A DNA stretch of 22,490 bases from a virus: IMG/VR virus record IMGVR_UViG_3300020172_000247, positions 1 to 22,490 of that record. The stretch is one strand, 5' to 3'. The notes under the pieces were generated by a model, which was given only the letters and a program-made list of their open reading frames with translations, did no database searches and had not been told where the DNA came from. Positions 89 to 20,951 of this stretch are shown piece after piece. Position 1 is the first letter of the stretch, and each line of letters begins with the position of its first letter. Position numbers and translations under genes: made by a program.

Positions 89-466
89 ATGCTATTAAAT
101 GAATTTTTCGGGTCTATAAATTTAAAAAATAACCCCGAGTCTTCAAAGAAAGAAGAACACAAAAAAATCAAGCAGGAAGGTCTATCTGCTGATGTATTTG
201 AATACATCATCAATAATGACAAGCTACACAAAACAGCATTCTTTCCCATTGCTGAAAAGATAATCAAAGAAGCCACAAAAGAACATGACCCAAAAATGTG
301 GATGCCGATAGTTAATAAAGGTTGTATGGAATTTTACAATGCAACAAAAATGAAAGAGAATCCTAAAGAATTATTTACAGAAGAATTCCGTGAAGAACTG
401 TGCAATAAAATGGCAGAGCATTACAACCGAGACATCTTAAAAGGTGTTTATAATTTAGGAAAATAA
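89..466 (+). CDS. Small conserved phage protein with an MLLNEFFG leader
   Basis: A 125-residue protein of unknown function, rich in charged residues and predicted mostly helical. It opens with MLLNEFFG, close to the MLLNQLFAPK start of the next gene, which places it in the family of leader-bearing genes of this block. No clear aliphatic-x-Glu cut site follows immediately. The middle and C-terminal part (MWMPIVNKGCMEFY, then EELCNKMAEHY) is reminiscent of small hypothetical proteins I associate with marine T4-like phages, from memory only. The ATG is supported by CGGAG at 79-83, and its stop abuts the start of the next gene. I infer a head-associated or packaged role from leader and neighbours; no catalytic motif is visible. 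Confidence 0.8.
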   Translation: MLLNEFFGSINLKNNPESSKKEEHKKIKQEGLSADVFEYIINNDKLHKTAFFPIAEKIIKEATKEHDPKMWMPIVNKGCMEFYNATKMKENPKELFTEEFREELCNKMAEHYNRDILKGVYNLGK

Positions 467-3400
467 ATGTTATTGAATCAATTATTTGCTCCTAAAAAAT
501 TATTCGAAGGCGGTAATCTAGCCAGTCACAAAGCTGACGGGCAACCTATGCCAGGATGGCAGGGCGTTCCTGGACAACATCAAGCACAAGAATTAGATTT
601 AAATGTACACAACCGTACAGAAGTTGTAGCTGTGTTATCAGACTTGTTACACAGTATTAATGATTTATTTGCACAACAATACAAAGAACCGTTATGGCAT
701 GAAAACTCTGTGAAAGCTCAGAAGTTTTTAAGTGGCAGCACTATGAGATTCTTTGATAAGAAAATACCAGACGAAGAATTTGTACGTGTTAAACCCACAG
801 TAGGTGACATTGATACACAAGCACCGGATAAACACGAAGGAACAATTAAACAATTCCTTACAGGTTTAATCGGCAAGCAGGTAGGCGATACTAAATTTAT
901 TGGATTTAGTCCAGGTAACAATCAATATACCAGTATGTGGCAGGTTACATTGCAGGATATGCCGGTTAAACTTCAAATAGATTTTGAGTACGGATCACAT
1001 GATCCTACAACAGGACTGCCTACACCTTGGCAAGAATATAGCCATAGCAGTTCTTGGGAAGATTTGTCAGCAGGTATTAAAGGTGTGTTTCATAAGTACA
1101 TTGATCGTGCATTGCCTTATGCTTCTACAGTCAGTACCAAGTATGTTGCTCGTGTATTAAAGAAAAGTACAAAGATAAGCGACGAGCCGGTAACAGATTC
1201 AGACTACAGTTTTGCTGTCAGTGGCCAAGGTGGTGGCGGAGTAAGTAGAAAATATGTTCCTTACGATGATCCGTCTACTGGTGCTCCTATGGAAAGAGAC
1301 GGCATTCCGGTTATGCAGTTGTTAGATCCTGCTAATCGTCAATACATACAAAATCTCGGACAACAGTTTGAAATATTCTTTGGTCGTAAACCTAAAGGCA
1401 ACGATCAACAACTTAAAAATAGTTTTGTAGGTACTGTAGATCTAGCTAACAAATATCTAGATGACCAACAACGCACAGAATTGTTTAATAGATTTGTATC
1501 AATATGCTTTGAGCCCGGTAGTCAAATGATTACCAAAGGCGATCCAGTAAGAGATCGTACTATTAAAATGGCTGCTATTGATTATATGATTCAAAATATG
1601 AAACTAGCTAATCCGCAGGCTATGCGAAAGCAGGCTATTAAAACAGCCATGGACTACGAACAGGCATTCACCTCTAAACAAGCAGGTAAAGGATTGAACG
1701 AAGCCGAAGTTAAAGCACAGTTTAGAAAAAGCATGCCTCACCTTAAAGATCTAAAACCCATTGACTTTTTAGATCTATTAGACGAATTAGATCAAGGCGA
1801 TGGTAAATTTAAATTAAAGAATATTCCATTAAATGTTAAAGTCGACGGCTTTGGTGGACGCTTTGGTAAGAACTCAGAAGGTAAGCCGTTTATGGCTACC
1901 AGTAGAACTGAGCCTCGTTATCAAGCAGGTTTTGTTGACTATCATCAAAAGAAAGGCACAACTGATCCTGAAATTCTAGGTCGTGCTCAATTGTTTGATG
2001 ATTTGTTTTCAGAAATGATGACTGCTGTGGAAATGGTCGACAACAAACTAGGTCCTGACTTTTTAGTAAACAAACAAGTAACCTGCGAAGTACTGTATCT
2101 ACCATTTGCTACAGAAACACCTGAAGGCAAATTAAAATTTGTAGGTATACAATATGATAAACTTCCACAAGGTGTAGAACTAGCCTTAGTTCCATTCCGT
2201 GTAACAGATGCAACTACAGGCGAGGATATCCCAGATTCAAATAAAGCAGTTAAGGCATTAACAGGTGTAGGACGTCAAGGTAGTGTGATGTTTATTGATA
2301 ATAGTCTAACACAAAACGACGAATTAGATGTCACTGAAATTATCAATGTTTTAGACAACATTGAAGAATTAAAACAGATTGTATCAGACACTGCGGGCAA
2401 AAGAGATCGTGCTAGTCTAGATCTTAGACGCCAAGTAGAAGAAAAACTTCAACCTGTTAAAGTAGAACTTGAAAAAGCAATTATCAACGATCCAAATATC
2501 ATTGGCAAAGATTTATTAGGTAAAGATTATGAAGGTATTGTTATTAATAGTCGCTTAGGTCCTATTAAAATTACCAGCCAAGAACAACGTGATGTTATCA
2601 GTACTAAAAATGCTGCTAAAATAAGTGCAAGAACAGAGCAGCCAAGAGGCGAGGCCAAGACAGCAGTAGTAGCTATAGGTAGTTTTATTGGTCACAAAGG
2701 TCATGAAGAACTGTTTACCTATACAATTAACAAAGCCAAAGAAGTAGGTGGAGACCCTTATTTGTTTATTGGCAATGCTGAAGGTAAGAATGATCCTATT
2801 CCACCTGATGTCAAAGTACAGACATGGCATAAATTGTATCCAGAGTATGCTAAGAATATCAGTACTGTACAAGAAGGTGGACAGTTGATACAAAAAATCA
2901 AACACGAATTAATTAATCCACTGCCAGGCAAACCTCCACGCTACGATAACATTATTATTATGGTTGGTGAAGATCGTGCTGGTATGAATATGCCCACAGC
3001 ATTGATGAAAGCTGTAAACAAGTTCCAAGGTTACGAACATGTCAAGATAAGCCTTGATGTTACTCCGCGTGGAACTGGAATTAGTGGAACTGCATTACGT
3101 AATAGTTTAAAAAATGATCCTCCAGAAAAAGCATTAGCTACATGGTCTAACGCTTTTGATGTAAACAAACTTGGTGTTGATTGGATCAAACATCTAATGA
3201 ACATAACGAGAAAAGGTATGGGAATTCAAATGACACAACCTCCGGCGCAACAACCAGCTGCACAACCTGCACCAATGGCTGAAATGAGATTATTCAATGC
3301 TCTTATGGCACCAAAACATAGATTGGTAGAGGCAGATGATTCAAAATTTGTAGGATTTATGAATCAAGCATTAGGAAAAAAAGTCGACGAGCCTTCTAAG

Positions 3401-5398
3401 AAAAGTAAATCAGGAATCGATGATTACGACAATGCTCCTACAATGAATTTAGATAGTTATAAGCCTGCATTAGATTTTTGTATGAAAATCATTCAAAAGT
3501 TAAATTCAACACAGAAAACTAAACTTAGCACTAAGGGCGAACATGGAGTAGTACGTTGGCTAACGAAACAGGCCACTGACGCAGGTTTGGTTCCTAATAA
3601 ATTTGTCGAGGAAGACATTGACGAAGTTCAAGAACAACTTCCTGAAATATTTAAAGATCCTGCTATTACCAGTTGGGCACTAGTTTTAACCGACGGAGAA
3701 CCTTTGCCAAAACCCCCGTCTAAAGGACCATTTAACATAGAAATGAATAAGGGATATGGTCCAGGAAAAGATGACAAAGGTAATTCATGGGGAGGAGGGT
3801 ATAAAAATCAAGATTGGGTTACTGTAGATACCTTAGATAATTTACCCGATGCAGAAAAAATGTTTCAGGGACTTGTGAGAAAAAATTCTAAATATTATTT
3901 TGGTATAACAGACGCTACTGGAAAATGGGCAAAATTTTATGACCCTAGTAAAGAACAAGGAGTAGCCGAGGGACAACTAGAATTAAACACCCCAAATCCT
4001 GTTGTAGTGATATCTGATACTAAAACAGGTAAAATTTTAGATAAAATAAATTTAAATATTGCCGCACAAAAATATCGTTTAGGTAACCCCGCAGATGTAA
4101 AAAATCAATTAGCACATCAAAACTATACTAACATCGGAAACTATACTATTTCTGCTCCAATGACTGGGCAACCACAAGATCAAACAACCACAGGACAGAA
4201 GAATACATTTGCCACTGTGGAAGGCGGCATTGCCACTGTGGGTTGGCCCGACGACGAAGATAGTCATACCAATAATCGTCCTCCTGTAAACGTAGGCGGT
4301 ACGTTTCCTGCTAGACCTGTGGTCAAGCGAGGCAGCTTAGTCAAAGCCAGCGGACTTACTGGTGTATACCGTGTAATGGACATTCTTAGAGATGAAGCCA
4401 AAATTGTACAAGAAATACCCCGTACCGGCGTGTCAACTTATGTTCCAATGTCAGACTTAAGGGTGTGGACTAATAAACCAATCAGAGAGAAAGACGTAGC
4501 AGAAGGCTCTGGCGGGGCTCAGTACAAAATAAAGAGTATTGGCCGTGATGCTAAAGGTGATTACTATATCAGCCCAAGTACAGGCAAGAAAGTATACAAG
4601 TCTGGTGTAAAGCGTGGTGACCACGAAAATCCTAAAACAGGTGAACATAAAGGTGTGGCGGAAGGTCTAGGTAAACACGTTGCTGGTGCTGCATTAGCAG
4701 GTGCTATGGCATTAGGTGGTGCAGGAGCACACGCTCAAAGTTCAGGTGAAGATTACCTTCCAGACATTGTTGCTCACGTAAAATTTAAAGTCAACGGCAA
4801 AGAAATATCTAAAGATATTAATCTAGGAACACAATATAAGTCTCCTAGAGAAGCAGCAGAGGCACTCGAAAAATTCTTAAGATCAAAAGGAATCAAATAT
4901 TTCGAGTACGATCTCGAACGTATAAAACCCAAAGACGACGACTACATGGATAAAACACCGTATACTGACCCTACATCTAACGAAAGTGTAGAAGAAGCTA
5001 TGTCAGCAGCCGTGCGTTTTCAACGTGCTTGGGAACGTCAACAGGCCAAAAGTGCTGCAAGTCGTAAACGTGGTGAAGAACTTCTAAATCCTAAAAAGAA
5101 AGAAGAACCTAAGCCAGAAGAAAAGAAAACTGAAATGATGGATCCTGATAAATTCTCAGGTTATCCTAAAAACAAACTAGGATCAGCAGCACATTTAAAA
5201 GGCACAACTAAACGTGGAGCTCATGCAGGTGATCTAGTCGGAGAAACAGATAAGAAAAAAGGCGCAGACGGTAAGGCATGTTGGGACGGATATCGTTACA
5301 ACGGCACTGAGAACGGTAGTGATAAATGCGTTAAAATTGGCGAAGCATGGGAAATAGAAATGTCTCATGCTATCAGTAAACTATTTGAAAACCGATGA
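467..5398 (+). CDS. Giant multi-domain polyprotein: NTase, ATP-ligase-like, NMNAT-like domains and processed linkers
   Basis: This 1643-residue protein begins with a leader, MLLNQLFAPKKLFE|GG, whose LFE|G fits a T4-type prohead protease site. Residues 88-210 look like a pol-beta-fold nucleotidyltransferase (GS at 90-91, GDID at 113-116, a third Asp in QIDFEY). Residues about 430-705 look like a covalent nucleotidyltransferase/ligase domain: KVDG at 458-461, CEVLY at 540-544, EGIVI at 689-693 and K701. Residues about 732-915 look like an NMNAT-type adenylyltransferase (GSFIGHKGH at 738-746, ISGTALR at 872-878). A proline/glutamine linker leads to a second leader at 940-956. VAEG sites follow at 1166-1169, 1344-1347 and 1397-1400, then a signal-peptide-like stretch (1401-1423) and a Cys-containing tail module (1604-1626). 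Repair of nucleic acid ends and NAD synthesis are inferred roles; domain calls rest on motifs only. Confidence 0.85.
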   Translation: MLLNQLFAPKKLFEGGNLASHKADGQPMPGWQGVPGQHQAQELDLNVHNRTEVVAVLSDLLHSINDLFAQQYKEPLWHENSVKAQKFLSGSTMRFFDKKIPDEEFVRVKPTVGDIDTQAPDKHEGTIKQFLTGLIGKQVGDTKFIGFSPGNNQYTSMWQVTLQDMPVKLQIDFEYGSHDPTTGLPTPWQEYSHSSSWEDLSAGIKGVFHKYIDRALPYASTVSTKYVARVLKKSTKISDEPVTDSDYSFAVSGQGGGGVSRKYVPYDDPSTGAPMERDGIPVMQLLDPANRQYIQNLGQQFEIFFGRKPKGNDQQLKNSFVGTVDLANKYLDDQQRTELFNRFVSICFEPGSQMITKGDPVRDRTIKMAAIDYMIQNMKLANPQAMRKQAIKTAMDYEQAFTSKQAGKGLNEAEVKAQFRKSMPHLKDLKPIDFLDLLDELDQGDGKFKLKNIPLNVKVDGFGGRFGKNSEGKPFMATSRTEPRYQAGFVDYHQKKGTTDPEILGRAQLFDDLFSEMMTAVEMVDNKLGPDFLVNKQVTCEVLYLPFATETPEGKLKFVGIQYDKLPQGVELALVPFRVTDATTGEDIPDSNKAVKALTGVGRQGSVMFIDNSLTQNDELDVTEIINVLDNIEELKQIVSDTAGKRDRASLDLRRQVEEKLQPVKVELEKAIINDPNIIGKDLLGKDYEGIVINSRLGPIKITSQEQRDVISTKNAAKISARTEQPRGEAKTAVVAIGSFIGHKGHEELFTYTINKAKEVGGDPYLFIGNAEGKNDPIPPDVKVQTWHKLYPEYAKNISTVQEGGQLIQKIKHELINPLPGKPPRYDNIIIMVGEDRAGMNMPTALMKAVNKFQGYEHVKISLDVTPRGTGISGTALRNSLKNDPPEKALATWSNAFDVNKLGVDWIKHLMNITRKGMGIQMTQPPAQQPAAQPAPMAEMRLFNALMAPKHRLVEADDSKFVGFMNQALGKKVDEPSKKSKSGIDDYDNAPTMNLDSYKPALDFCMKIIQKLNSTQKTKLSTKGEHGVVRWLTKQATDAGLVPNKFVEEDIDEVQEQLPEIFKDPAITSWALVLTDGEPLPKPPSKGPFNIEMNKGYGPGKDDKGNSWGGGYKNQDWVTVDTLDNLPDAEKMFQGLVRKNSKYYFGITDATGKWAKFYDPSKEQGVAEGQLELNTPNPVVVISDTKTGKILDKINLNIAAQKYRLGNPADVKNQLAHQNYTNIGNYTISAPMTGQPQDQTTTGQKNTFATVEGGIATVGWPDDEDSHTNNRPPVNVGGTFPARPVVKRGSLVKASGLTGVYRVMDILRDEAKIVQEIPRTGVSTYVPMSDLRVWTNKPIREKDVAEGSGGAQYKIKSIGRDAKGDYYISPSTGKKVYKSGVKRGDHENPKTGEHKGVAEGLGKHVAGAALAGAMALGGAGAHAQSSGEDYLPDIVAHVKFKVNGKEISKDINLGTQYKSPREAAEALEKFLRSKGIKYFEYDLERIKPKDDDYMDKTPYTDPTSNESVEEAMSAAVRFQRAWERQQAKSAASRKRGEELLNPKKKEEPKPEEKKTEMMDPDKFSGYPKNKLGSAAHLKGTTKRGAHAGDLVGETDKKKGADGKACWDGYRYNGTENGSDKCVKIGEAWEIEMSHAISKLFENR
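3284..3334 (+). other. Internal copy of the capsid-targeting-like leader
   Basis: Residues 940-956 of the giant protein read MRLFNALMAPKHRLVEA. They match its own N-terminus, MLLNQLFAPKKLFEG, in spacing: M-x-L-x-x-L-[FM]-A-P-K-x-x-L-x-E. The predicted cut would be LVE|A. It follows a low-complexity Pro/Gln/Ala linker, as expected where two once-separate genes were fused. Reading it as a protease site is inference. Confidence 0.6.
4652..4666 (+). repeat. GVAEG box, DNA-conserved copy 1
   Basis: GGTGTGGCGGAAGGT encodes Gly-Val-Ala-Glu-Gly. The first 12 bases recur in the gene at 6203 (6575 and 6755), and 11 of them at 6401. Two other VAEG sites in this giant gene (3959-3973 and 4493-4507) use different codons. 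It sits just before a hydrophobic, signal-peptide-like segment. Confidence 0.75.
4977..4996 (+). repeat. 20-bp direct repeat (NESVEE), copy 1
   Basis: The 20 bases CTAACGAAAGTGTAGAAGAA are identical to 7056-7075 in a different gene and encode N-E-S-V-E-E in both. V-E-E|A here fits an aliphatic-x-Glu cut site. Identity at the base level suggests a recent shared origin of this linker. Confidence 0.7.
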
Positions 5399-5670: not shown

Positions 5671-6045
5671 ATGAGAATATCTGAACTATTAACTGAAGTA
5701 CGAGCTGGTAAAATCAGCAAGCGAGCACAGCAGTCTAGCCGAGGTATAAACACCTATGGCGATGTTGAACACGCAAGCAGTGACTATGTAGGCTTTAAAC
5801 TAGGACAGGCCATGGCAATGAGTGACGGCTCAGGTGCTCCTATAGATATTGATCCTAAGAGTTGGTACGGTAAAAAGAAAACTGTTCATCCTTATTCAGA
5901 AATAGAACAACAGATGTTTAAAGATGCAGCTAAAATAGTTGGGGCAGAATACAAAGACGTAAACAACGGCGACATGCGAAGCAAAGAATTAGACAGCACT
6001 TACACAGTAAGCCCTGTGCCTGATAGAAAGAAACTGTCAAAATGA
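5671..6045 (+). CDS. Leader-bearing small phage protein (MRISELLTE)
   Basis: A 124-residue protein of unknown function beginning MRISELLTE|V. The first nine residues match the leader type of this block, with LTE as the predicted cut. The remainder is basic at first (RAGKISKRAQQSSRG), then contains DPKSWYGKKKTVHPYSEIE and ends TYTVSPVPDRKKLSK. I recall similar short proteins in marine T4-like phage genomes, always without function. The start has only a weak upstream ribosome site (GGAAAA, about 15 bases away). Its stop overlaps the next ATG (AATGA). A DNA-binding or internal head role would fit the basic composition but is inference. Confidence 0.75.
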   Translation: MRISELLTEVRAGKISKRAQQSSRGINTYGDVEHASSDYVGFKLGQAMAMSDGSGAPIDIDPKSWYGKKKTVHPYSEIEQQMFKDAAKIVGAEYKDVNNGDMRSKELDSTYTVSPVPDRKKLSK

Positions 6046-6206
6046 AGATTCAAGAATTATTAGAAACAGCAACGGGTATGGGTACTGCTAGTATCGCTAC
6101 TAGTATTGCTACTAAGAAACCTAAGAAAGGGCAGAAATTAAATCTGCTAGGAACTCCTGTATCTGAAACAGGTAAAGAAATTAAAGTAATAAAGAGACAA
6201 CCATGA
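6042..6206 (+). CDS. Leader-bearing mini-protein, 54 residues (MKIQELLE)
   Basis: A short open frame between two longer genes, overlapping both by four bases (ATGA at each end). It encodes MKIQELLE|T, a clean copy of the block leader, then an Ala/Thr/Ile/Ser stretch (GTASIATSIATKK) and a basic tail ending KVIKRQP. The perfect overlaps and the leader argue that it is real despite its size. The next gene lacks an N-terminal leader, so this could be a detached leader peptide or the remnant of a once-continuous gene. No function is visible in the sequence. Confidence 0.65.
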   Translation: MKIQELLETATGMGTASIATSIATKKPKKGQKLNLLGTPVSETGKEIKVIKRQP

Positions 6207-7276
6207 ATCATCCAGACCACGAAATAGAAATGGCTCGTTCCGAACTATATTCAATAGCCAAGTATGCTATGGCACTTCACGAGATGTTAGAAAATGTCAG
6301 TGAGCTAGAAGGCATGGAAGGTTGGCAACAGAGTAAAATTACCAAAGCAGCTGATTACATGGAAAGTGTTTATCAAAGCATTACACATGAAATGAAATTT
6401 GGTGTGGCGGAGAACACAAATTCTCCCGCCTATCAAAGAGTGGAACTTTACAATCAAGGTCGTAAAGCAGGTCTAAGTGGCAAAGGTACCAATCCCTACG
6501 GTGATCCAGATAACAGTAGAGAAGCATATTTCTGGCAAGAAGGTTACGAAGATGGTCAAATACTTAGAAGCAAAGGTGTGGCGGAAGGCGACTATCCCAA
6601 CGACCCATTCAGAGAAATACACAGTCAAGGTCAACAGGCAGGTATTGCCGGAAAACCAAACAATAATCCATACGGCGAACCGGGCGATAGCAAAGAAGCA
6701 TCTTACTGGGACGACGGTTATGAACTTGGTCTACAAATTAGAAGAAAAAGAACAGGTGTGGCGGAAGCAGGACGCGGCAGTAATAAAGGATATGCTCCTG
6801 GATTTGCCAGTCCAACAGCACCAAATCTAAGACCTGTTGGCGGTCCAAAACAAGATGATGAATATGTAAATGGCGGTCCAGTAAACAATATCGAAGTATC
6901 TATTAACGATCGTCCTTGGAAGATATTTCCAGGCAAGGGGCCGGATGGTAGCAAGGCATTTTTCCAACAAAAACAAGACGTTGACGAAATGTGCAAACGC
7001 AAGACTGCCGCAACTGGCAAAAAATGGAGTTGGGGTGTCACAGGTGACCCTGCTACTAACGAAAGTGTAGAAGAAAACAAAAAAGGTGTACGTGCTGTCA
7101 AGCATACTACAAAACCTAGAAATCCTGTAATGGCTGGAGACAAGCCGGGCAAAGCCACTGTTACTCATAAAAATAAAAAGAAAGATGCAGAACGCGGAAT
7201 TGAGAAACACAAAGGCAAAGAGCCTGCCTATGAATCTCGTCTTTGGAACGCACTTTCGCAACATCTAGAAAAATAA
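6203..7276 (+). CDS. Modular protein with two RMF-like repeats separated by VAE sites
   Basis: A 357-residue modular protein. Residues 1-66 are a helical domain (EMARSELYSIAKYA, WQQSKITKAADYME) of a kind I recall from marine phage proteins. GVAE|N follows at 67-71. Two tandem repeats follow (71-129 and 130-189), each with x-x-G-x-x-A-G-x-x-G-x(5-6)-NPYG and then W-x-x-GYE-x-G, ending in GVAEG or GVAEA. The repeat pattern resembles ribosome modulation factor (RMF). Residues 229-281 form another module (VSINDRPWKIFPGKG, KKWSWGVTG). TNESVEEN follows at 285-292, then a Lys-rich stretch. There is no N-terminal leader, but the C-terminus ESRLWNALSQHLEK resembles the internal leader EMRLFNALMAPKHRLVE of the giant protein. 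Ribosome binding is an inference. Confidence 0.8.
   Translation: MNHPDHEIEMARSELYSIAKYAMALHEMLENVSELEGMEGWQQSKITKAADYMESVYQSITHEMKFGVAENTNSPAYQRVELYNQGRKAGLSGKGTNPYGDPDNSREAYFWQEGYEDGQILRSKGVAEGDYPNDPFREIHSQGQQAGIAGKPNNNPYGEPGDSKEASYWDDGYELGLQIRRKRTGVAEAGRGSNKGYAPGFASPTAPNLRPVGGPKQDDEYVNGGPVNNIEVSINDRPWKIFPGKGPDGSKAFFQQKQDVDEMCKRKTAATGKKWSWGVTGDPATNESVEENKKGVRAVKHTTKPRNPVMAGDKPGKATVTHKNKKKDAERGIEKHKGKEPAYESRLWNALSQHLEK
6401..6415 (+). repeat. GVAE box, DNA-conserved copy 2
   Basis: GGTGTGGCGGAGAAC encodes Gly-Val-Ala-Glu-Asn and matches the first 11 bases of the other boxes. It marks the junction between the N-terminal helical domain and the first RMF-like repeat. Confidence 0.7.
6413..6589 (+). 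repeat. RMF-like module 1 (59 residues)
   Basis: Residues 71-129 of the gene at 6203. Key residues are NQGRKAG, NPYG, then W and GYEDG, ending in KGVAEG. Compared with module 2 the glycines, NPYG and the W..GYE core are kept while other positions differ, so this is an old protein-level duplication rather than a fresh DNA copy. Confidence 0.75.
6575..6589 (+). repeat. GVAEG box, DNA-conserved copy 3
   Basis: GGTGTGGCGGAAGGC encodes Gly-Val-Ala-Glu-Gly. With the three A bases in front, it matches copy 1 at 17 of 18 positions. It separates the two RMF-like modules. Confidence 0.75.
6590..6769 (+). repeat. RMF-like module 2 (60 residues)
   Basis: Residues 130-189 of the gene at 6203. Key residues are SQGQQAGIAG, NNPYG, then YWDDGYELG, ending in TGVAEA. 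AGIAG is also the wording found in E. coli RMF (QRGYQAGIAG), as I recall that sequence. Confidence 0.75.
6755..6769 (+). repeat. GVAEA box, DNA-conserved copy 4
   Basis: GGTGTGGCGGAAGCA encodes Gly-Val-Ala-Glu-Ala and shares 12 bases with the other boxes. It ends the second RMF-like module. Confidence 0.75.
7056..7075 (+). repeat. 20-bp direct repeat (NESVEE), copy 2
   Basis: Identical over 20 bases to 4977-4996. Both copies are preceded by a similar D-P-T/A-x-x context (DPTSNESVEE and DPATNESVEE), so the related stretch at protein level is about ten residues. Confidence 0.7.
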
Positions 7277-8523
7277 TGCGTATAGTAGAACTAGTCGAAT
7301 CATCAAAGCGTACACCAGATTTGATGGATGCTTTTGCTGCGTTCTTTCCTCTAGCCATGCAAGAGTTAGAAATTGACCGATTGCCTGATATTAAATTAGA
7401 ACTACATTTAGAATTAGATGAACAGCCTTCATTTGGTAAGTTTGTTCAAAGTGAAAATAGAATGTATCTAGCAATAGAAGATCGACATCCAGTTGATATT
7501 CTTAGAACACTGGCACACGAACTAGTACATTACAAACAGGGTGTAGAACACGAATTAACTTCCAATAGTGGCGATACTGGTAGTCCTCAAGAAAACGAAG
7601 CACATGAAGTTGCTGGCATTATTATGCGACATTTTAATAAACAGCATCCAGAATTCTTCGATACTTCTGCCATTAATATCAGCGAAAGTTTTAAAAAGAA
7701 AGCAGCGGGTCTAGCATTAGGTGCATTGTCTTTAGGTGCTCAAGCTACTGCTCCCCAGATAGTTCAACAGATTGTTGAACCAGGCGATACTGTGTATTCC
7801 ATTGCAAGACAGAATAATGTTCCTCCTGCAGAGATTATGAAACTTAATAAAATGGGCAAGCAGACAAAACTTGAAATTGGTCAAAAGGTAAAAGTGCCTG
7901 ACTATTCGAAGCCAATTAAATTGCCCAGCACAGTAACTCCTACTGTTAAACAACCTCCTAATATTTCTCCAGCAGCACAGGCAGCACCTATGAAAGTATT
8001 GCCCAAAGTTGGCGATGAAGTTTCTTTGTTGAGTGACAATCCTGATGCAGAAGCTGCTTTACAAACTGCTGCCAAAGCCGCAGGACTTAAAGGTGCAGAA
8101 CTAGCACAGTTTATGGCACAGACTCGACACGAAAGTTGGGACTTTGGTAAAATGAAAGAAGTAGGCAACAAGAAAAGATTTGCCAAATATGAAACTCCAC
8201 GTAAAGCAAGACAGTTGGGCAACAAAGTAAAAGGCGACGGTGAAAGATTCAAAGGCCGCGGCTTTATACAATTAACTGGACGTGATAATTATACTCGTGC
8301 CAGTGAGCAAATTTTTGGTGATGACAGACTAGTTCGTAAACCCGAATTAGCCAGTGACCTTAATGTTGCTGCTAAGATTGCTATTTGGTATTGGAAGAAT
8401 CAAGTTAGACCTAATGTTAATAATTTTAACAATACAAAAGAAGTAACTAACGCAATTAATCCTGGTCTAAGCGGGCTACAAGATAGACATAATAAATTTA
8501 AAGAATATCTAGCAATATTATGA
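7276..8523 (+). CDS. Modular lysin: HExxH metallopeptidase-like domain, LysM, GH19-type lysozyme, with block leader
   Basis: Starting at the ATG that overlaps the previous stop (TAATG), the protein has 415 residues and begins MRIVELVE|SS. Residues 40-125 hold a zinc-peptidase-like motif, HELVH at 81-85 with a following NEAHE (107-111). ISE|S at 135-138 precedes a basic-then-hydrophobic stretch ending in AQATA (139-159) that looks like a signal peptide. Residues 166-208 are a LysM peptidoglycan-binding domain (PGDTVYSIARQNNV, IGQKVKVP). Residues about 258-400 are a GH19 chitinase/lysozyme-type domain with RHESW (E286) and GRGFIQLTGRDNY (328-340). The likely job is cell-wall degradation. The leader suggests it could be virion-borne and cut into two parts, but it may also be the late lysis enzyme. 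No holin is seen nearby. Confidence 0.85.
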   Translation: MRIVELVESSKRTPDLMDAFAAFFPLAMQELEIDRLPDIKLELHLELDEQPSFGKFVQSENRMYLAIEDRHPVDILRTLAHELVHYKQGVEHELTSNSGDTGSPQENEAHEVAGIIMRHFNKQHPEFFDTSAINISESFKKKAAGLALGALSLGAQATAPQIVQQIVEPGDTVYSIARQNNVPPAEIMKLNKMGKQTKLEIGQKVKVPDYSKPIKLPSTVTPTVKQPPNISPAAQAAPMKVLPKVGDEVSLLSDNPDAEAALQTAAKAAGLKGAELAQFMAQTRHESWDFGKMKEVGNKKRFAKYETPRKARQLGNKVKGDGERFKGRGFIQLTGRDNYTRASEQIFGDDRLVRKPELASDLNVAAKIAIWYWKNQVRPNVNNFNNTKEVTNAINPGLSGLQDRHNKFKEYLAIL

Positions 8524-9038
8524 GAGCAGATGAATTTATAAATGAAAACACCGCCGATGGCATCAACAAGATGTTTAACAATCTAGGTGATCCTGTGTAT
8601 GCTAATCTACAACGAGTAGCATTATTAGCCATGCAAGGAAGACAGCAAGAAGCAGCCGGACGCTTACAATCAGTAATCAAAAATGCTTCCCCTAATGTGC
8701 AAAAAAAAATCACAGATGCAGTAAACAATATTAAACCTGTTACAATAGATGGTAAAATAGCCGATTCTAGTACATTGGATAAAAGTAAACAACATCAGGA
8801 TTGGATCTTAAACACATTCATTCCGTGGGTAACGTCTTTATTAGATCAGCAAGGCATGGCAGAAAATTTTGCTGACGGTAAGAATCCTGGACGAAAGGGT
8901 CTAGCTAAACGTAGTGGAGTAAATACCAAAGCCAGTGTTAGTAGTCTGCGTAAGACTGCAAAAAATTCATCGGGTGAAAAGCAACGTATGGCACACTGGT
9001 TGGCTAATATGAAAGCAGGAAGGGCAAAAAAGAAATGA
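8520..9038 (+). CDS. Leader-bearing modular protein (MRADEFINE) with basic C-terminal module
   Basis: A 172-residue protein overlapping the lysin stop by four bases. Its start MRADEFINE|N is strikingly like T4 internal protein leaders (MKTYQEFI-x-E). A helical middle follows (ANLQRVALLAMQGRQQEAA). Then comes GMAE|N at about 113-116 and a basic C-terminal module, ADGKNPGRKGLAKRSGV to the Lys-rich end. The C-terminal module resembles a short domain I remember as recurring in marine phage proteins of unknown function. Nucleic-acid or head-interior binding would fit the charge, but this is inference. Confidence 0.75.
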   Translation: MRADEFINENTADGINKMFNNLGDPVYANLQRVALLAMQGRQQEAAGRLQSVIKNASPNVQKKITDAVNNIKPVTIDGKIADSSTLDKSKQHQDWILNTFIPWVTSLLDQQGMAENFADGKNPGRKGLAKRSGVNTKASVSSLRKTAKNSSGEKQRMAHWLANMKAGRAKKK

Positions 9039-9697
9039 AAATAACTGAACTATTAACAGAGTCTGCTAAGAAAGGTCTTTACTATTACGTAAATAAACGT
9101 AAGAAAGCAGGTACTAGTAGAAGCAAAAATAATCCTAAAGCGCCGTCTGAACAAGATTGGAAAAATACTGCCAAGACTGCTAAAAACGAAGGCGGCAATC
9201 CTCGACAGGCTGCTATTGCCATTGCTAAACGTGAATCAGGAAAATACAATAAAGATGGTGAGCGTATAAAAGAAGATTCATTATTAGATCAAGAATTTGA
9301 TCTTATTGAATCAATCATCGAAAAATTAGCAGAACATAACGGTGTAGATGCAGAAGTAATCTGGGAGGACCTAGAAAGTCTCACAGAAGATGAACTCTAC
9401 GCTTTTGCTGTGACGTCAGAGCCTGTGATGGAAGACTGGCAAAAGGCCAACAAGCGTGACAACACAGATGGCATGAGTCAAAAGGCTGTGAATGCGTATC
9501 GCAGAGAGAATCCTGGTTCAAAGTTGAAAACTGCTGTGACCACCAAGCCGTCAAAGTTAAAGAAAGGCTCAAAGGCTAGCAAACGTCGTTCAAGTTATTG
9601 CAGTCGTAGTCGCGGACAGATGAAGATGCACAGTATTAGCTGTAGTAAAACTCCAGACAAAGCAATCTGCAAAGCACGTAGACGTTGGAACTGCTGA
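9035..9697 (+). CDS. Leader-bearing modular protein (MKITELLTE) with Cys-containing C-terminal module
   Basis: A 220-residue protein with ATGA overlap to its predecessor and leader MKITELLTE|S. Residues 13-75 form one basic module (KKGLYYYVNKRKKAGTSRS; GNPRQAAIAIAKRESGKYN). Residues 80-130 are acidic and helical. Residues 133-220 form a third module with DWQKANKRDNTDGMSQKAVN, then SYCSRSRGQMKMHSISCSK and the end RRRWNC. Cysteines at 189, 203, 212 and 220 could bind metal or form disulfides. I recall the third module as a domain of unknown function recurring in marine phages (possibly DUF6321; from memory, unchecked). No enzyme motif is visible. Confidence 0.78.
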   Translation: MKITELLTESAKKGLYYYVNKRKKAGTSRSKNNPKAPSEQDWKNTAKTAKNEGGNPRQAAIAIAKRESGKYNKDGERIKEDSLLDQEFDLIESIIEKLAEHNGVDAEVIWEDLESLTEDELYAFAVTSEPVMEDWQKANKRDNTDGMSQKAVNAYRRENPGSKLKTAVTTKPSKLKKGSKASKRRSSYCSRSRGQMKMHSISCSKTPDKAICKARRRWNC

Positions 9698-10236
9698 TGA
9701 GAGATTTATTGACTATTATAGAAGCTGTAGAGACTAAAAAGTTAACTACAGAAAAACTTCCCTATGGTAAGTCAGGACTCAATCCTGTAATGAGCGATGC
9801 TAGCATCAACTATCATTACGAAAAACTAGCCAAGGGTTATGCAGAAAGATATAACAAAGGCGAAGGTGATCCTACGTTTAATGAAGCAGGAAACTTTCTT
9901 CACAATTTGTTTTTTCCTCAACTACAACCTCCAAAGGCCAGTAACAAGCCTGCAGGTGCATGTCTAGAACTTATTGAGAAAAAATTTAAATCATTTGAAA
10001 AATTTCAAGAAGATATCCAAACTGAAGCTATGAAGATACAGGGCAGTGGATGGATTTATCTCAGCACATCCGGTGCTATTAAAACAATTAAAAATCACGA
10101 AGTTAGAAAAGATATAGCATTGTTAATTGATTGGTGGGAACATGCCTGGGCATTGGACTATCAAGCAGACAAACAAAAATATCTTAAAAACATTTGGCGT
10201 ATAATTAATTGGGAAGTTGTCAACTCAAGATTATAA
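9697..10236 (+). CDS. sod: Fe/Mn superoxide dismutase with block leader
   Basis: The best start is the ATG at 9697, overlapping the previous TGA, giving 179 residues. The protein converts superoxide to oxygen and hydrogen peroxide. The four metal ligands of the family can be placed at H40 (NYHYEKLAKGY), H69 (NEAGNFLHN), D145 and H149 (DWWEHAWALDYQ). The C-terminal KYLKNIWRIINW is typical. The family usually has about 190-210 residues; the N-terminal helical region is short. The metal-site region FLHNLFF replaces the usual NHxxFW, so the second ligand rests on a gapless alignment by eye. Its start MRDLLTIIE|A resembles the block leaders and is not part of ordinary SODs, so it may be packaged in the head. 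Metal preference cannot be told. Confidence 0.85.
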   Translation: MRDLLTIIEAVETKKLTTEKLPYGKSGLNPVMSDASINYHYEKLAKGYAERYNKGEGDPTFNEAGNFLHNLFFPQLQPPKASNKPAGACLELIEKKFKSFEKFQEDIQTEAMKIQGSGWIYLSTSGAIKTIKNHEVRKDIALLIDWWEHAWALDYQADKQKYLKNIWRIINWEVVNSRL

Positions 10237-11441: not shown

Positions 11442-14111
11442 ATGAGTTATGTTGATTCCGTCTGGGATCGCGACAAAGACACCATTCGAGTTGTCGAGCG
11501 AGACCCTACTAAAGGTAGACAGTTTAAAGACTTTCCTGCCAAATATGTTTTTTACTATCCAGACCCTAAAGGAAAATATCAATCCATTCACGGAGATCCT
11601 TTAACTAAAGTCAGTGTAAAAAGCCATAAAGAATTCCAAAAAGAACTACGCATACACAGTGGTAAGAAACTGTTTGAAAGCGATATCAATCCAGTATTCC
11701 GTTGTCTAGAAGAAAATTATCTAGGCAAGGATGCACCAAAATTAAACGTAGCGTTCTGGGATATTGAGGTAGACTTCGATCCAGAGCGTGGCTACGCAAG
11801 TCCTGATGATCCTTTTATGCCAATTACTGCTATTGCTGTACATCTACAATGGATGGACACATTAGTATGTCTTGCTATACCGCCCAAGACTATGACTATG
11901 GAGCAGGCGCAGGAAGCAGTTAAAGAATTTCCTAACACTATTCTGTTTGATTCAGAATATGACATGTTAGATACATTCTTAAATTTAATTCAAGATGCTG
12001 ATGTGTTAAGTGGTTGGAACAGTGAAGGGTTTGATATGCCGTATACTGTTAACCGTGTTATTAAAGTTTTAAGCAAAGAGGACACACGCAGATTCTGTTT
12101 GTTTAACCATTATCCTAAAAAGAGAGAATACGAAAAATATGGTAAGGACGCTGTTACTTATGATCTTATTGGTCGCGTACATCTTGACAGTCTCGAGCTA
12201 TACAGGAAATACACTTATGAAGAAAGACATAGTTATCGACTAGATGCTATTGCCGAATATGAACTAGGCGAAACTAAAACTGTCTATGAAGGCACACTAG
12301 ATCAACTTTATAATAATGACTTTAAAAAGTTTATTGAATATAACAGACAAGACTGTGCCCTGCTTGACAAACTAGATAAAAAACTTAAATTTATTGATCT
12401 AGCCAACACCGTTGCACATGAAAACACAGTATTGATTCAAACTACAATGGGTGCTGTAGCTGTTACTGAACAGGCAATTGTAAATGAAGCTCATCATAGA
12501 GGTATGATTGTTCCAGGTCGTCCTAAACGTGATGAAGAAGTTGATACACAGGCCGCAGGTGCTTATGTAGCATATCCTAAAAAAGGATTGCATGACTGGA
12601 TTGGAAGCATGGATATTAACAGTTTGTATCCAAGTGCAATTCGTGCATTAAACATGGGACCAGAAACTATTATAGGTCAATTGCGTCAAGATTACACCAA
12701 ATCAGAAATATCTAGCAAAATGAGCAAAGGTAGCTCGTTTGCGGCTGCATGGGAAGGTAAGTTTGGCAGCAACGAATATGAATTTGTAATGAGTAAGGAT
12801 CGGGCAACTGACATTACTATCGACTGGGAAGATGGTAGAGTAGATGTTCTCAGTGGTGCTCAAATTTATGAATTAATTTTTGAAAGCAATCAACCTTGGA
12901 TGTTGAGTGCCAACGGTACTATTTTTACCTACGAGCGTGAAGGTATTATTCCCGGACTGTTAAAACGTTGGTACGCTGAACGTAAGGAAATGCAGGCCAA
13001 GTTAAAGGAAGCTATTGTCGCAGGAGATAAAGTACAAGAAGAATACTGGGACAAACGTCAACTAGTTAAGAAGATTAACTTGAACAGTTTGTATGGTGCT
13101 ATTCTGAACGCAGGTTGCCGTTTCTTTGATAACCGCATTGGACAAAGCACTACACTGACTGGTCGGAGAATTGCTCGTCATATGGCTAGTAAAGTTAACG
13201 AAGTTATCACAGGAGAATATAATTACATTGGAAAAAGTATTATCTACGGTGACACTGACTCTGTTTACTTTTCAGCATACACTACGTTGAAAAACGACAT
13301 CAATAAAAAACTTATTCCGTGGGATAAAGACACAATTATTCAACTGTATGATACAATCTCAGATGAAGTTAACAGTACATTTTCCCAGTATATGCTAGAC
13401 GATTTTCATTGTCCAACTAGCAAGGGTAGTGTTATTAAAGCAGGCCGAGAAATTGTTGCAGTTAAAGGCTTGTTTATTACCAAGAAACGGTATGCTGTTC
13501 TTTACTTTGATAAAGAAGGCAAACGTAGTGATGTAGAAGGTAAACCAGGAAAGATCAAAGCCATGGGGCTAGATTTGAAACGTAGTGATACTCCAGAATT
13601 TATGCAAAAGTTTTTAGAAGAAGTATTAACCAAAGTACTCAATGGTGCTGAGGAAAAAGATATCTTAGAAATGATTGGTGAATTCCGAACTGAGTTTAAA
13701 GCAAGACCCGGTTGGGAAAAAGGCAGTCCCAAACGTGCTAACAACATTGCTGAGTATCAGGCTAAAGAAGTCAAGGCTGGTAAGACTAATATGCCAGGGC
13801 ATGTACGTGCTAGTATTAATTGGAATACCTTAAAGCGTATGAACGGTGACAAATACAGTCAACAAATTGTAGACGGTATGAAAGTTATTGTTTGTAAACT
13901 AAAAGATAATCCACTAGGATATACTTCAGTAGCGTATCCAGTAGATGAGCTACGTCTACCTAAGTGGTTTCAAGAACTTCCATTTGATCACGGTGAAATG
14001 GAAGCAACAATTATCAATAACAAACTTGATAACTTAATCGGTGTGTTGGAATGGGACTTGGCGTCAACAACACAAAATAACACCTTTGGTAGTTTGTTCA
14101 GCTTTGAATAA
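11442..14111 (+). CDS. gp43: Family B DNA polymerase, T4 gp43 type
   Basis: The replicative polymerase with 3'-5' proofreading, 889 residues, close to T4 gp43 in length. Exonuclease motifs are visible: DIEVD at 107-111 (D107, E109), NSEGFD at 193-198 and YNRQD at 300-304. Polymerase motif A is DINSLYPS (391-398), motif B KINLNSLYGA (544-553) and motif C YGDTDS (602-607). The C-terminal peptide NTFGSLFSFE (880-889) corresponds to the clamp-binding tail of gp43-type polymerases. The sliding clamp gene follows directly. The ATG is backed by TGGAG six bases upstream, and the leader may carry an operator. All key catalytic residues are present, so it should be active. Confidence 0.97.
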   Translation: MSYVDSVWDRDKDTIRVVERDPTKGRQFKDFPAKYVFYYPDPKGKYQSIHGDPLTKVSVKSHKEFQKELRIHSGKKLFESDINPVFRCLEENYLGKDAPKLNVAFWDIEVDFDPERGYASPDDPFMPITAIAVHLQWMDTLVCLAIPPKTMTMEQAQEAVKEFPNTILFDSEYDMLDTFLNLIQDADVLSGWNSEGFDMPYTVNRVIKVLSKEDTRRFCLFNHYPKKREYEKYGKDAVTYDLIGRVHLDSLELYRKYTYEERHSYRLDAIAEYELGETKTVYEGTLDQLYNNDFKKFIEYNRQDCALLDKLDKKLKFIDLANTVAHENTVLIQTTMGAVAVTEQAIVNEAHHRGMIVPGRPKRDEEVDTQAAGAYVAYPKKGLHDWIGSMDINSLYPSAIRALNMGPETIIGQLRQDYTKSEISSKMSKGSSFAAAWEGKFGSNEYEFVMSKDRATDITIDWEDGRVDVLSGAQIYELIFESNQPWMLSANGTIFTYEREGIIPGLLKRWYAERKEMQAKLKEAIVAGDKVQEEYWDKRQLVKKINLNSLYGAILNAGCRFFDNRIGQSTTLTGRRIARHMASKVNEVITGEYNYIGKSIIYGDTDSVYFSAYTTLKNDINKKLIPWDKDTIIQLYDTISDEVNSTFSQYMLDDFHCPTSKGSVIKAGREIVAVKGLFITKKRYAVLYFDKEGKRSDVEGKPGKIKAMGLDLKRSDTPEFMQKFLEEVLTKVLNGAEEKDILEMIGEFRTEFKARPGWEKGSPKRANNIAEYQAKEVKAGKTNMPGHVRASINWNTLKRMNGDKYSQQIVDGMKVIVCKLKDNPLGYTSVAYPVDELRLPKWFQELPFDHGEMEATIINNKLDNLIGVLEWDLASTTQNNTFGSLFSFE

Positions 14112-18238: not shown

Positions 18239-19313
18239 TTTAGAATCAGTTGAAACCAGGTACACGGGTCAGTGGAAGACTCATGTACCTGCTCTCTTAC
18301 GAAAGGCAGGACACAATGTCAACATTATATCAGGTCCTACGGACATTCCTAGTGCTACCACTCCTGGAGCATTTCTCAACTTTGGCGGCACTAATATATA
18401 CAAAGCTAGTCAAGTGGAGCAGATGGGCCGTTTATTTTGTAGCGGATCCGTTCATCCTGGCGACCACTTTATTTTTACTGATGCTTGGCATCCAGGCATC
18501 ATAAACTTAAAATACATGAGCGAGTTACTGGGTATTCCAGTAACTACACACGGCTTATGGCATGCTGGTAGTTATGATCCCCAAGACTTTTTAGGACGCT
18601 TAGTTGGTAGCAAACCTTGGGTTAGACATGCTGAGAAAAGTTTTTATCATGCGTTCGATCATAACTATTTTGCCACAGAGTTTCATGTACATCTATTCAT
18701 GAAAAAATTACTCAACGACGGGTATACTATCGAAAATCCATGGTGGCATGAAGATTGGCATGAACGTTACGACAGCGGCAAAATTGTCAAGACTGGTTGG
18801 CCCATGGAGTATATGGACAATGCTCTTGTAGAATATAAGAACATGCCCAAACGTGATCTTATCTTATTTCCGCATCGCATTGCTCCAGAGAAACAAGTTG
18901 AAATCTTTCGCGACTTAAAAGAACAACTGCCACAGTATGAATTCGTTGTTTGCCAGGATCAACAGCTAACAAAGAATGAGTATCATAATTTATTAGGCGA
19001 AGCTAAAATTGTGTTTAGTGCCAGCCTACAGGAAACACTGGGTATTGGCTGCTATGAGGGAGCATTACTTGATGCTGTTCCTATGGTACCAGATCGACTT
19101 TCATATAAAGAAATGTATCACGAAGGTTTTAAGTATCCTAGTGCATGGACAGAAAACTGGGATAGCTATCTTAGACATAGACAAGAACTGTGCCATCACA
19201 TTATAGTTACTATGACCCATTATGAAAAACGTATTCCACAATTACGCAAACAAACGGAAGACTTGTCTAAATATTTCTTTAGTGCAGGTCGTCTGCTGGA
19301 GAATATTAAATGA
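18216..19313 (+). CDS. GT-B fold glycosyltransferase (GT4-like)
   Basis: A 365-residue protein from the ATG at 18216, preceded by AAGAG. The C-terminal half has the layout of a nucleotide-sugar binding domain: LILFPHRIAPEKQVEIF (215-231), KIVFSASLQETLGIGCYEGA (264-283), and PMVPDRLSYKEMY (289-301). E273 and E281 are at the positions of the E-x(7)-E motif of GT4-type enzymes. The N-terminal half is less typical. It would transfer a sugar from a nucleotide donor; the acceptor could be a modified DNA base, a virion protein or a host glycan. The overlapping neighbour downstream encodes a UDP-sugar dehydrogenase-type protein, so the two may act on the same sugar. A weak upstream TTG start at 18201 is less likely. 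Confidence 0.8.
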   Translation: MANVFLVDLESVETRYTGQWKTHVPALLRKAGHNVNIISGPTDIPSATTPGAFLNFGGTNIYKASQVEQMGRLFCSGSVHPGDHFIFTDAWHPGIINLKYMSELLGIPVTTHGLWHAGSYDPQDFLGRLVGSKPWVRHAEKSFYHAFDHNYFATEFHVHLFMKKLLNDGYTIENPWWHEDWHERYDSGKIVKTGWPMEYMDNALVEYKNMPKRDLILFPHRIAPEKQVEIFRDLKEQLPQYEFVVCQDQQLTKNEYHNLLGEAKIVFSASLQETLGIGCYEGALLDAVPMVPDRLSYKEMYHEGFKYPSAWTENWDSYLRHRQELCHHIIVTMTHYEKRIPQLRKQTEDLSKYFFSAGRLLENIK

Positions 19314-20113
19314 GTGAAATGTTTCAATTACCAAAGATTGGTATCGTAGGTCTAGGATTTGTTGGTCAGGCTATTAGAGAAAGTATCAGTGGCTACAATG
19401 TAGTCACTGTTGACAGTGACCCTAGCAAAGGCAGTGATAAATTTGAAGACTTATTTGCCTGCGAAGGTATTTTTATCTGTGTTCCTAGTCCACAGTTAGA
19501 AGATGGCACTTGCGATACTTCAATTTTAGAAAGTGTCTTAGAAAAACTTCAAGGATATACAGGTGTTATTATTAGTAAGTGTACAGCACCGCCAGATGCT
19601 TATAAACGATTAAATGATCTTTATCCAAACCTTGTTCATGTTCCAGAATTTTTAACTGCGGCTAGAGCCAAGTTAGACTACCTAGGCGGTAAATTTGCCT
19701 TTATTGGCGGAAATGTTCGTGCATATCAGCATGAAGCAGAACGAATTATTAGAATAACACAGCATAGTCTTAACAAAGTTATCTACTGTACTATCGGAGA
19801 GGCAGCATTAGCCAAGTATACGATTAACAGCTTCTTAGCCACTAAGGTAACTTTTATGAATGAAATTTATATGCTGGCGCAGAACCTAGGTCTTGATTAT
19901 GAAAAAGTTGCAGAAATGGTTGTCTGTGATGACCGTATTGGCAAAAGTCATATGCGGGTTCCTGGCCCTGAAGGTTTATTTGGATTTGGCGGGATGTGCT
20001 TTCCTAAAGATACATCCGCATTGATTAAATTTGCAGAACAGGTTGGTGTCCATGTTAATGTCGTCGATGCCGCAGTAAAGAAAAATACTCTGCTTCGCTT
20101 GACAAAAACCTAA
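19310..20113 (+). CDS. Short UDP-glucose/GDP-mannose dehydrogenase family protein
   Basis: A 267-residue NAD-dependent sugar-nucleotide dehydrogenase-type protein. The Rossmann motif is GLGFVG (14-19). ALAKYTINSFLATKVTFMNE (166-185) is the family's central segment with K169 and N173, and GGMCFPKDT (227-235) holds the catalytic Cys (C230). Family enzymes usually have about 390-450 residues with a third domain that binds the UDP part; here the protein stops soon after the catalytic loop. It may be a reduced phage form with altered substrate or one that needs a partner. It overlaps the glycosyltransferase by four bases. A start at 19319 (MFQ) is possible. The last codons overlap the -35 region of the folE promoter. 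Confidence 0.85.
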   Translation: MSEMFQLPKIGIVGLGFVGQAIRESISGYNVVTVDSDPSKGSDKFEDLFACEGIFICVPSPQLEDGTCDTSILESVLEKLQGYTGVIISKCTAPPDAYKRLNDLYPNLVHVPEFLTAARAKLDYLGGKFAFIGGNVRAYQHEAERIIRITQHSLNKVIYCTIGEAALAKYTINSFLATKVTFMNEIYMLAQNLGLDYEKVAEMVVCDDRIGKSHMRVPGPEGLFGFGGMCFPKDTSALIKFAEQVGVHVNVVDAAVKKNTLLRLTKT

Positions 20114-20171: not shown

Positions 20172-20951
20172 ATGGTATATCAAAATGCATATGAAAGTCA
20201 CGACGAGGAACCTAGTGACAAAAAAGAATCAATTTTAGACATTGACGAAAAAGGTTACGAAGTTGGCTATCTAGGTACGCAAATACGTCAACGAATGAAA
20301 CGTGATAAAAAACGTTTTTGGGCAGGTGACAATATCAGTGAATATCTTAAGCCCGGCGATAAAGAAATTCTAATTAGTGATGCTACAGAAGCATTTGAAC
20401 AAGTATTAGACACATTACTAATTGATCAAGAAACTGATCCTAATTCAAAAGGAACAGCAAGACGATTAGCCAAAATGTATTTTAATGAAATAATGGCAGG
20501 AAGATATGACCCAGCACCAGATGCAACAGCATTCCCAAATGATTCAGCAGACAGATACGAGGGTATGTTGGTTGTGCGTAGCGAACTACGTAGTATGTGC
20601 AGTCATCATCATCAACCTGTTAGTGGAGTGGCATACATTGGAATTATTGCGGCAGAAAAACTTATCGGCTTGTCCAAGTATACACGTATTGCCCAATGGT
20701 GTGCTCGTCGAGGAACCTTACAGGAAGAATTGTGTATTGACATAACCAATGAGATTATGGCTGCAACTGGTAGCAAGGATGTTGGTGTTTATATTCAAGC
20801 AGTACACGGATGTTGTGAGAATCGTGGCATTATGGCACACTCTAGTCTAACACAAACAACTGTACTTAGAGGTGCGTTCAAAGATGATCCCAACACTAAA
20901 AAAGAATTTATGGACAATGTTAAATTGCAACAAGAATTTGCACCTCGATGA
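20172..20951 (+). CDS. folE: GTP cyclohydrolase I
   Basis: A 259-residue enzyme that opens GTP to 7,8-dihydroneopterin triphosphate, the first step toward folates and 7-deazaguanines. SMCSHHHQPVSG (141-152) holds the zinc ligands C143 and H146, and AVHGCCENRG (210-219) holds the third ligand C214 and the R218 of the family motif H-x-C-M-x-x-R-G. TRIAQWCARRGTLQEEL (171-187) is also typical. The N-terminal 60 residues are an extension beyond the bacterial core. It has its own consensus promoter, so it may be made strongly and early. With QueD-like, QueE and DpdA in the window, its product most likely feeds DNA base modification. Confidence 0.95.
   Translation: MVYQNAYESHDEEPSDKKESILDIDEKGYEVGYLGTQIRQRMKRDKKRFWAGDNISEYLKPGDKEILISDATEAFEQVLDTLLIDQETDPNSKGTARRLAKMYFNEIMAGRYDPAPDATAFPNDSADRYEGMLVVRSELRSMCSHHHQPVSGVAYIGIIAAEKLIGLSKYTRIAQWCARRGTLQEELCIDITNEIMAATGSKDVGVYIQAVHGCCENRGIMAHSSLTQTTVLRGAFKDDPNTKKEFMDNVKLQQEFAPR

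Follow-up and report, generated by a model that had tools for sequence, protein, structure and literature searches.

A single open frame that joins three nucleotidyl-transfer domains in a virus raises the question of whether its product works as one enzyme or is a precursor from which several are released. The window analyzed here, meaning the whole stretch of 22,490 bases, also encodes a T4-type DNA polymerase (11442-14111; nearest in the phage collection are jumbo T4-superfamily phages, e.g. Sinorhizobium phage Phosso, 51.5%). An earlier note, made from the letters alone, had assigned the three domains to a gene at 467-3220. The start stands, and the end does not, since the frame runs on to 5398 and the interval spans the first 918 of its 1643 codons (Table 1). 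All the motifs quoted in that note were found in frame and in place: GS (residues 90-91) and GDID (113-116) in the first domain (D1), KVDG (458-461) and EGIVI (689-693) in the second (D2), GSFIGHKGH (738-746) and ISGTALR (872-878) in the third (D3). Searches with the ORF in Pfam, NCBIfam and PADLOC returned no usable name; its sole Pfam-A match was FAD_syn (0.089), with none to the RlaP nucleotidyltransferase, and its PHROGs matches comprised two families of unknown function and a cytidyltransferase (3.3e-13, on D3). From the domains, conserved residues, N-terminal signal, site conservation and fusions computed here, the gene is likely that of a head-targeted polyprotein in a phage of the T4 superfamily, predicted to be cut into D1, D2-D3 and tail modules and to be delivered with the DNA.

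Table 1. Features of the polyprotein gene and of related genes in the window; an arrow marks a predicted cut.
Feature	Residues and sites	Position	Strand	Evidence
Upstream gene (125 aa)	N-terminal signal MLLNEFF, as on the polyprotein	89..466	+	Signal score 13.6
Whole polyprotein gene	1643 aa	467..5398	+	Open frame, 1643 codons
Head-targeting-like signal and cut site	1-14, MLLNQLFAPKKLFE↓GGN	467..508	+	70/70 relatives, score, disorder
D1, predicted Pol-beta-fold nucleotidyltransferase	15-400	509..1666	+	Model, folds, invariant motifs
Disordered D1/D2 linker	406-420, candidate site LNE412↓AE (E412 codon 1700-1702)	1682..1726	+	76/76 relatives; pLDDT
D2, KxDG ligase-type covalent nucleotidyltransferase domain	415-722	1709..2632	+	Invariant motifs, Foldseek, hhalign
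D3, HIGH-superfamily (NMNAT/PPAT-like) nucleotidyltransferase	729-922	2651..3232	+	VIA, PHROG, invariant motifs
D3/tail joint	924-955, MAE939, then second signal-like stretch RLFNALMAPKHRLVE955↓A	3236..3331	+	Sites, disorder
Tail modules	956-1643	3332..5395	+	Joints VAE1168↓G, VAE1346↓G, VAE1399↓G, VEE1510↓A, IGE1626↓A
GH19 endolysin	MRIVELVES start, HELVH metallopeptidase-like module, LysM	7276..8523 (ORF 7243-8523)	+	Leader-like start
MKITELLTES gene	YYYVNKRKKAG module	9035..9697	+	Module also upstream of D1 in relative L184

Relatives of the polyprotein were collected by several scans, one of which found 17 viral loci, while a profile scan and a D1 scan were each represented by 80 relatives (of 213 and 222, respectively). 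The 172 pooled viral loci collapsed to 78 that are unique by D1, with D1-D2-D3 in one frame in 74, D1-D2 in 2 and D1 in 2. An AlphaFold model of residues 1-932, built on 50 relatives, reached a mean pLDDT of 85.6 and a pTM of 0.48, the sole stretches that fall under a pLDDT of 50 being residues 1-15, 406-420 and 924-930; D1 modelled alone reached a pLDDT of 95.8 and a pTM of 0.91. Structure prediction had been proposed in the earlier note as a check on its three folds, and the fold matches agree with it, strongly for D3, moderately for D1 and weakly for D2. The three domains are real: the folds follow one another in the order claimed, and their active-site residues are conserved across the aligned unique relatives (n = 73 for D1, 75 for D2 and 73 for D3).

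Within D1, residues G90, S91, D114, D116 and D172 are invariant in 73/73 relatives and K109 is present in 72/73. Pol mu, TdT, Pol beta, Pol lambda and TUT7 are among the VIA matches listed (Z 7.5-8.5), with an rmsd of mostly 3.6-4.4 over mostly 175-190 residues for Pol X and TdT, and the Foldseek matches listed include Pol mu, Pol beta, SpoT and small alarmone synthetases (E 0.005-0.2, best 0.0046) together with a few unrelated proteins. Searching PDB sequences with D1 yielded no convincing match. Membership of D1 in the Pol-beta nucleotidyltransferase superfamily has moderate support from the modelled fold, completed by the invariant GS, DxD and D. D2 keeps K458, D460, G461, R465, E541, E689, G690 and K701 in 75/75 relatives and K468 in 73/75, and so carries motifs I, IIIa and IV and the motif V lysine of the KxDG covalent nucleotidyltransferase (ligase) superfamily, with K-I/V-T at motif V instead of K-x-K. 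Among the Foldseek matches listed for the three-domain model are ASFV DNA ligase (probability 0.97-0.99, E ~0.01), human Lig1 and a fungal tRNA ligase, which presumably fall on D2. No OB fold follows motif V in the model, where helix 705-722 alone precedes D3. T4 Rnl2 is likewise not known to have one, so that its absence from D2 counts against a DNA-ligase-type layout and not against the superfamily. An NAD-dependent ligase was considered for D2 and set aside, no Ia-type domain being seen in the model. An hhalign comparison of D2 with one DUF6267 protein gave nothing above 20%, with a motif order similar by eye; a literature search found no paper on DUF6267. In D3, G738, H743, G745, H746 and R878 are invariant in 73/73 relatives and S873 is present in 67/73, and PPAT, NMNAT, NadD and FAD synthetase are among the VIA matches listed (Z 10.5-13.2). 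The modelled fold and the GxFxxxHxGH and SxxxxR motifs strongly place D3 in the HIGH nucleotidyltransferase superfamily, within which PPAT, NMNAT and NadD are indistinguishable by fold.

The prohead protease of T4, gp21, is described in PMC9026906 as cleaving after L/I-x-E and thereby taking off capsid-targeting propeptides. A site of this kind directly precedes D1 (LFE14↓GGN): among the 70 relatives whose sequence extends far enough upstream (the other 8 of 78 rows were dropped), position -1 is E in all 70 and position -3 is L in 43, I in 22 and V in 5, the leader being variable apart from these two positions. The D1/D2 linker is hypervariable, ranging from ~18 to >100 residues. In counts that rest on a short motif and on relatives that are not independent, [LIV]xE occurs in this linker in 76/76 relatives (shuffle mean 34.6, max 45), in the D2/D3 linker in 0/74 (shuffle mean 9.5) and at most 45 residues after D3 in 58/73 (shuffle mean 33.6, max 46), the other 15 tails having none. 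When the relatives were thinned to 70% D1 identity, the site before GGN was present in 28/28, that in the D1/D2 linker in 27/27 (shuffle max 20) and that in the D2/D3 linker in 0/27; at 60% the respective values were 19/19, 17/17 (max 12) and 0/16. The shuffle mean for the D2/D3 linker at 70% thinning is 2.8, and hence its depletion is not significant alone. The two clearest candidate sites, E14 and E412, fall in stretches modelled as disordered, and the V at P3 of the VAE joints and the M of MAE939 go beyond the L/I-x-E motif of T4. The earlier note had the three domains acting joined in one protein; the protease-type site conserved in the disordered D1/D2 linker speaks against this, and probably D2 and D3 alone remain joined.

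The natural arrangements of these domains bear on the same point. A tblastn search of cultured phages with the whole ORF (1e-5) recovered relatives of D1 only, in 22 records (Campylobacter 15, Vibrio 6, Xanthomonas 1); relatives of D2/D3 are weak there (24 records at E up to 0.1), and D3-type proteins are common, with 531 phage records matching the one of Methylophilales phage Melnitz. Xanthomonas phage X1 has a run of separate genes after a primase/helicase, namely D1, a 334-aa gene, D2 and D3; hhalign matched D1 at 99.9% and D2 at 98.7%, and D3 was recognized through Pfam CTP_transf_like. In Vibrio phage phiKT1024, Xanthomonas phage X1 and Stenotrophomonas phage IME-SM1 the stand-alone D1 begins MGGN; that of Campylobacter phage CP21 begins MKLSELILILE↓GGN. 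A methionine that precedes glycine is normally removed, and therefore an MGGN start and cutting would yield the identical GGN end, so that the stand-alone starts match the end predicted for the cut polyprotein. Nine relatives carry an extra module in frame before GGN, with [LI]xE adjoining GGN and the signal missing at that place. The module is an orthologue of the upstream gene (89-466) in L032, L036, L081 and L193, the HELVH metallopeptidase-like module of ORF 7243-8523 in L126, L029, L030 and L016, and the module of ORF 9035-9697 in L184. The HELVH module of these four relatives was not seen in the polyprotein ORF of the window, and its Pfam peptidase matches are weak, below cut-off. In phage Melnitz (L104 1266-5929), neighbouring genes for a 361-aa protein, a DUF6267 protein and a HIGH nucleotidyltransferase each have a leader-like start; the leaders of this cassette end in sites of the LSE↓A, ITE↓D or IIE↓A type, and that of Syn9 in LSE↓A. 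The gene beside D2 in cultured phages (L098 3982-4986, L099 4116-5717, L104 1266-2351) appears by eye to be PD-(D/E)xK nuclease-like, and this component had no Pfam match.

A looser pattern for the N-terminal signal was tried and set aside. It matched 21/262 ORFs against 85/4460 internal pieces in G001, the 221-kb contig of a relative, and 4/26 against 13/480 in the window; because many of these matches are doubtful, it was replaced by a matrix built from 38 unique N-terminal octamers of the polyprotein family. In G001, whose own polyprotein contributed to the matrix, it picks 3 of 262 ORFs, namely the polyprotein, its upstream gene and an 81-aa gene that sits between the portal and prohead protease genes. 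The polyprotein of the window scores 13.9, and 0 of 68,509 internal positions reach 12. Of 9 contigs, 8 have the signal on the small portal-protease gene, with scores between 11.1 and 18.2, and L215 is without it. The equivalent interval of T4 holds the prohead core genes 67 and 68; hhalign gave 2.6% for gp68 (shuffled controls up to 4.2%) and 0.1% for gp67, and the small gene is therefore not called gp67 or gp68. G001 also encodes an S77 prohead protease (PF03420, E 2.1e-25) and a T4-type portal, which lie outside the reach of the window, as does gp23. The latter was found in 1/5 and 8/15 of the records searched (record G003 being counted in both sets), and 9/9 of these gp23s have L-x-E at the cleavage position of T4. 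Packaging in the head, which the earlier note had raised, gains considerable indirect support from the signal, the conserved cut sites, the fusion series and the gp23 L-x-E. Window genes 5671-6045, 8520-9038 and 9035-9697 score 0.6-2.7 on the matrix and 9685-10236 scores -8.3, and the leader peptides of Melnitz, Syn9 and T4 score below 0; their putative head signals hence rest on likeness by eye.

A module in common with another ORF was found in the tails of 46 of 59 relatives, and in alignments that are not independent 56 of 232 module boundaries lie at most 3 residues from an [LIV]xE, about twofold more than at random points (11.6%). The VAE motif occurs 5 times in the ORFs of the window (shuffle mean 0.12, max 1); in G001 its total of 3, one of them in the polyprotein, is within the shuffle range (mean 0.78).

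Packaging, cutting, ejection and chemistry are what we infer from these features. The short N-terminal signal would bring the precursor into the prohead core, where the S77-type prohead protease of the phage would cleave after [L/I/V]-x-E, taking the signal off at E14↓GGN, splitting D1 from D2-D3 at E412↓A and splitting off the tail modules. The freed D1 and the fused D2-D3 would remain with the DNA and be ejected into the cell, where their most likely task would be the repair or modification of nucleic-acid ends, with an adenylylated cofactor provided or regenerated by D3. One head-targeting signal would load a chain of enzymes, and the cargo could grow through gene fusions on either side of an [LIV]xE joint. 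Loading an enzyme chain into the head and cutting it there is a route of arming particles rarely considered for DNA phages. Head-delivered enzymes are already known; for the way in which large phages expand such cargo, the modular precursor offers a simple rule, whereby the head would take up any domain that follows a signal and an [LIV]xE joint, and if it is true, cargo becomes predictable from sequence in uncultured freshwater phages.

Two other accounts of the layout have to be set against this. One takes the gene product as an intact three-domain enzyme, either packaged or synthesized in the cell, whose parts work together in sealing nucleic-acid ends and restoring NAD, as the single D1-D2-D3 frame of 74/78 unique relatives and the conserved active sites of all three domains would allow. 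We regard it as unlikely in view of the protease-type site conserved in a disordered, hypervariable D1/D2 linker, the solitary D1 of Vibrio, Campylobacter and Stenotrophomonas phages, the separate D1, D2 and D3 genes of Xanthomonas phage X1 and the pTM of just 0.48 for the three-domain model. Less probable still is a cytoplasmic multi-domain protein that has nothing more than flexible joints in its linkers and [LIV]xE stretches and resembles the portal-protease gene at its N terminus by coincidence; L/I/V-x-E is indeed a short motif, but the 70/70, 76/76 and 0/74 pattern of sites, the lack of any score of 12 at 68,509 internal positions and the in-frame series of upstream fusions all argue against it.

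Within the polyprotein layout, two readings of the chemistry stand side by side. The pairing of a Pol-beta nucleotidyltransferase with a ligase is known in RNA repair (PMC7824862). Among 11 contigs that carry the gene and may be incomplete, an ATP DNA ligase was found in 1 and an NAD ligase or RNA_ligase in 0, and the 10 contigs without any of the three ligase families are suggestive, being in line with a repair role, as are the many tRNA genes of G001. Chemistry on nucleic-acid ends, taken alone, is nevertheless a tentative assignment that falls somewhat short of an even chance. The alternative, a set of metabolic enzymes that serves NAD or a different dinucleotide cofactor, with D3 as main actor and D2 as a modified nucleotidyltransferase, is possible but rather doubtful. 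It would account for the fold matches of D3 to PPAT, NMNAT and NadD, for the K-x-T of D2 at motif V with no OB fold after it, and for the NMNAT-like proteins that PMC10665884 and PMC9602691 report from cyanophage virions by mass spectrometry, with their authors' caution about possible carry-over; NAPRTase is present in 3/11 of the possibly incomplete contigs. In 8/11 of the same contigs NAPRTase was not found, however, the Pol-beta domain is left unexplained, and the 41 tRNA genes within ~13 kb of G001 (L105 5650-18512) fit a conflict over tRNA equally. That D2-D3 recharges its own cofactor, as a ligase-type enzyme that includes an adenylyltransferase, is, taken alone, improbable. The wider proposal, a true polyprotein strategy with D2-D3 as such a self-recharging enzyme and hence a nucleic-acid repair kit that is injected and usable from time zero, stands at even chances, most of which belong to the polyprotein part; if it is true, a Pol-beta, ligase-type and adenylyltransferase set would be in the cell at injection, ahead of host defences.

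The predicted polyprotein combines traits of T4 internal proteins with traits of polyvalent proteins. It resembles the T4 internal proteins and Alt, in the account given by PMC9026906, in its short N-terminal propeptide, L/I-x-E cut and ejection with DNA, the latter predicted here, and a relative's contig (G001) encodes the same protease family. The T4 internal proteins are described there as single units trimmed at their ends, whereas here one signal would serve a chain of several enzymes with internal sites; the T4 core proteins gp22 and gp67 are broken down into fragments, most of which exit from the head. Polyvalent proteins, as presented in PMC5512222, likewise have several enzymatic domains per chain and a supposed delivery by phage, as here three catalytic domains and tail modules share one polypeptide, and some relatives of the gene carry a metallopeptidase-like module. 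The prediction for them is that a metallopeptidase within the chain does the splitting, in contrast to the prohead-protease-like joints seen here, and the listing in that source gives pol-beta nucleotidyltransferases solely in conjugative-element versions. The NMNAT-like or cytidyltransferase proteins of T4-like cyanophages, neighbours of DUF6267, are of the D3 type, are reported in virions and have an adjoining KxDG gene; they differ in being separate genes, with no joined Pol-beta domain and no origin from a polyprotein. Pairs of an RNA ligase with an RlaP Pol-beta nucleotidyltransferase (PMC7824862) share the placing of such a domain beside a ligase and differ in genetic linkage and packaging, and neither D1 nor D2 gave a Pfam match to any such family (E up to 1). 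Literature searches found no published description of the polyprotein layout, NMNAT-like virion proteins having been reported already; if true, the layout would bear on those cyanophage proteins.

Several other window genes were noted in passing. An Fe/Mn superoxide dismutase is encoded at 9685-10236, with a likely start at 9697 (Pfam Sod_Fe_C 5.5e-24, Sod_Fe_N 3.2e-06); its start, MRDLLTIIEA, resembles a head-targeting leader by eye, with a negative matrix score (-8.3). A UDP-glucose dehydrogenase-like gene lies at 19310-20113 and a GTP cyclohydrolase I gene at 20172-20951. The frame at 6203-7276 contains a pair of ribosome-modulation-factor-like repeats (Pfam RMF 4.5e-12); GVAEG/GVAEA stretches separate the repeats and also follow them.
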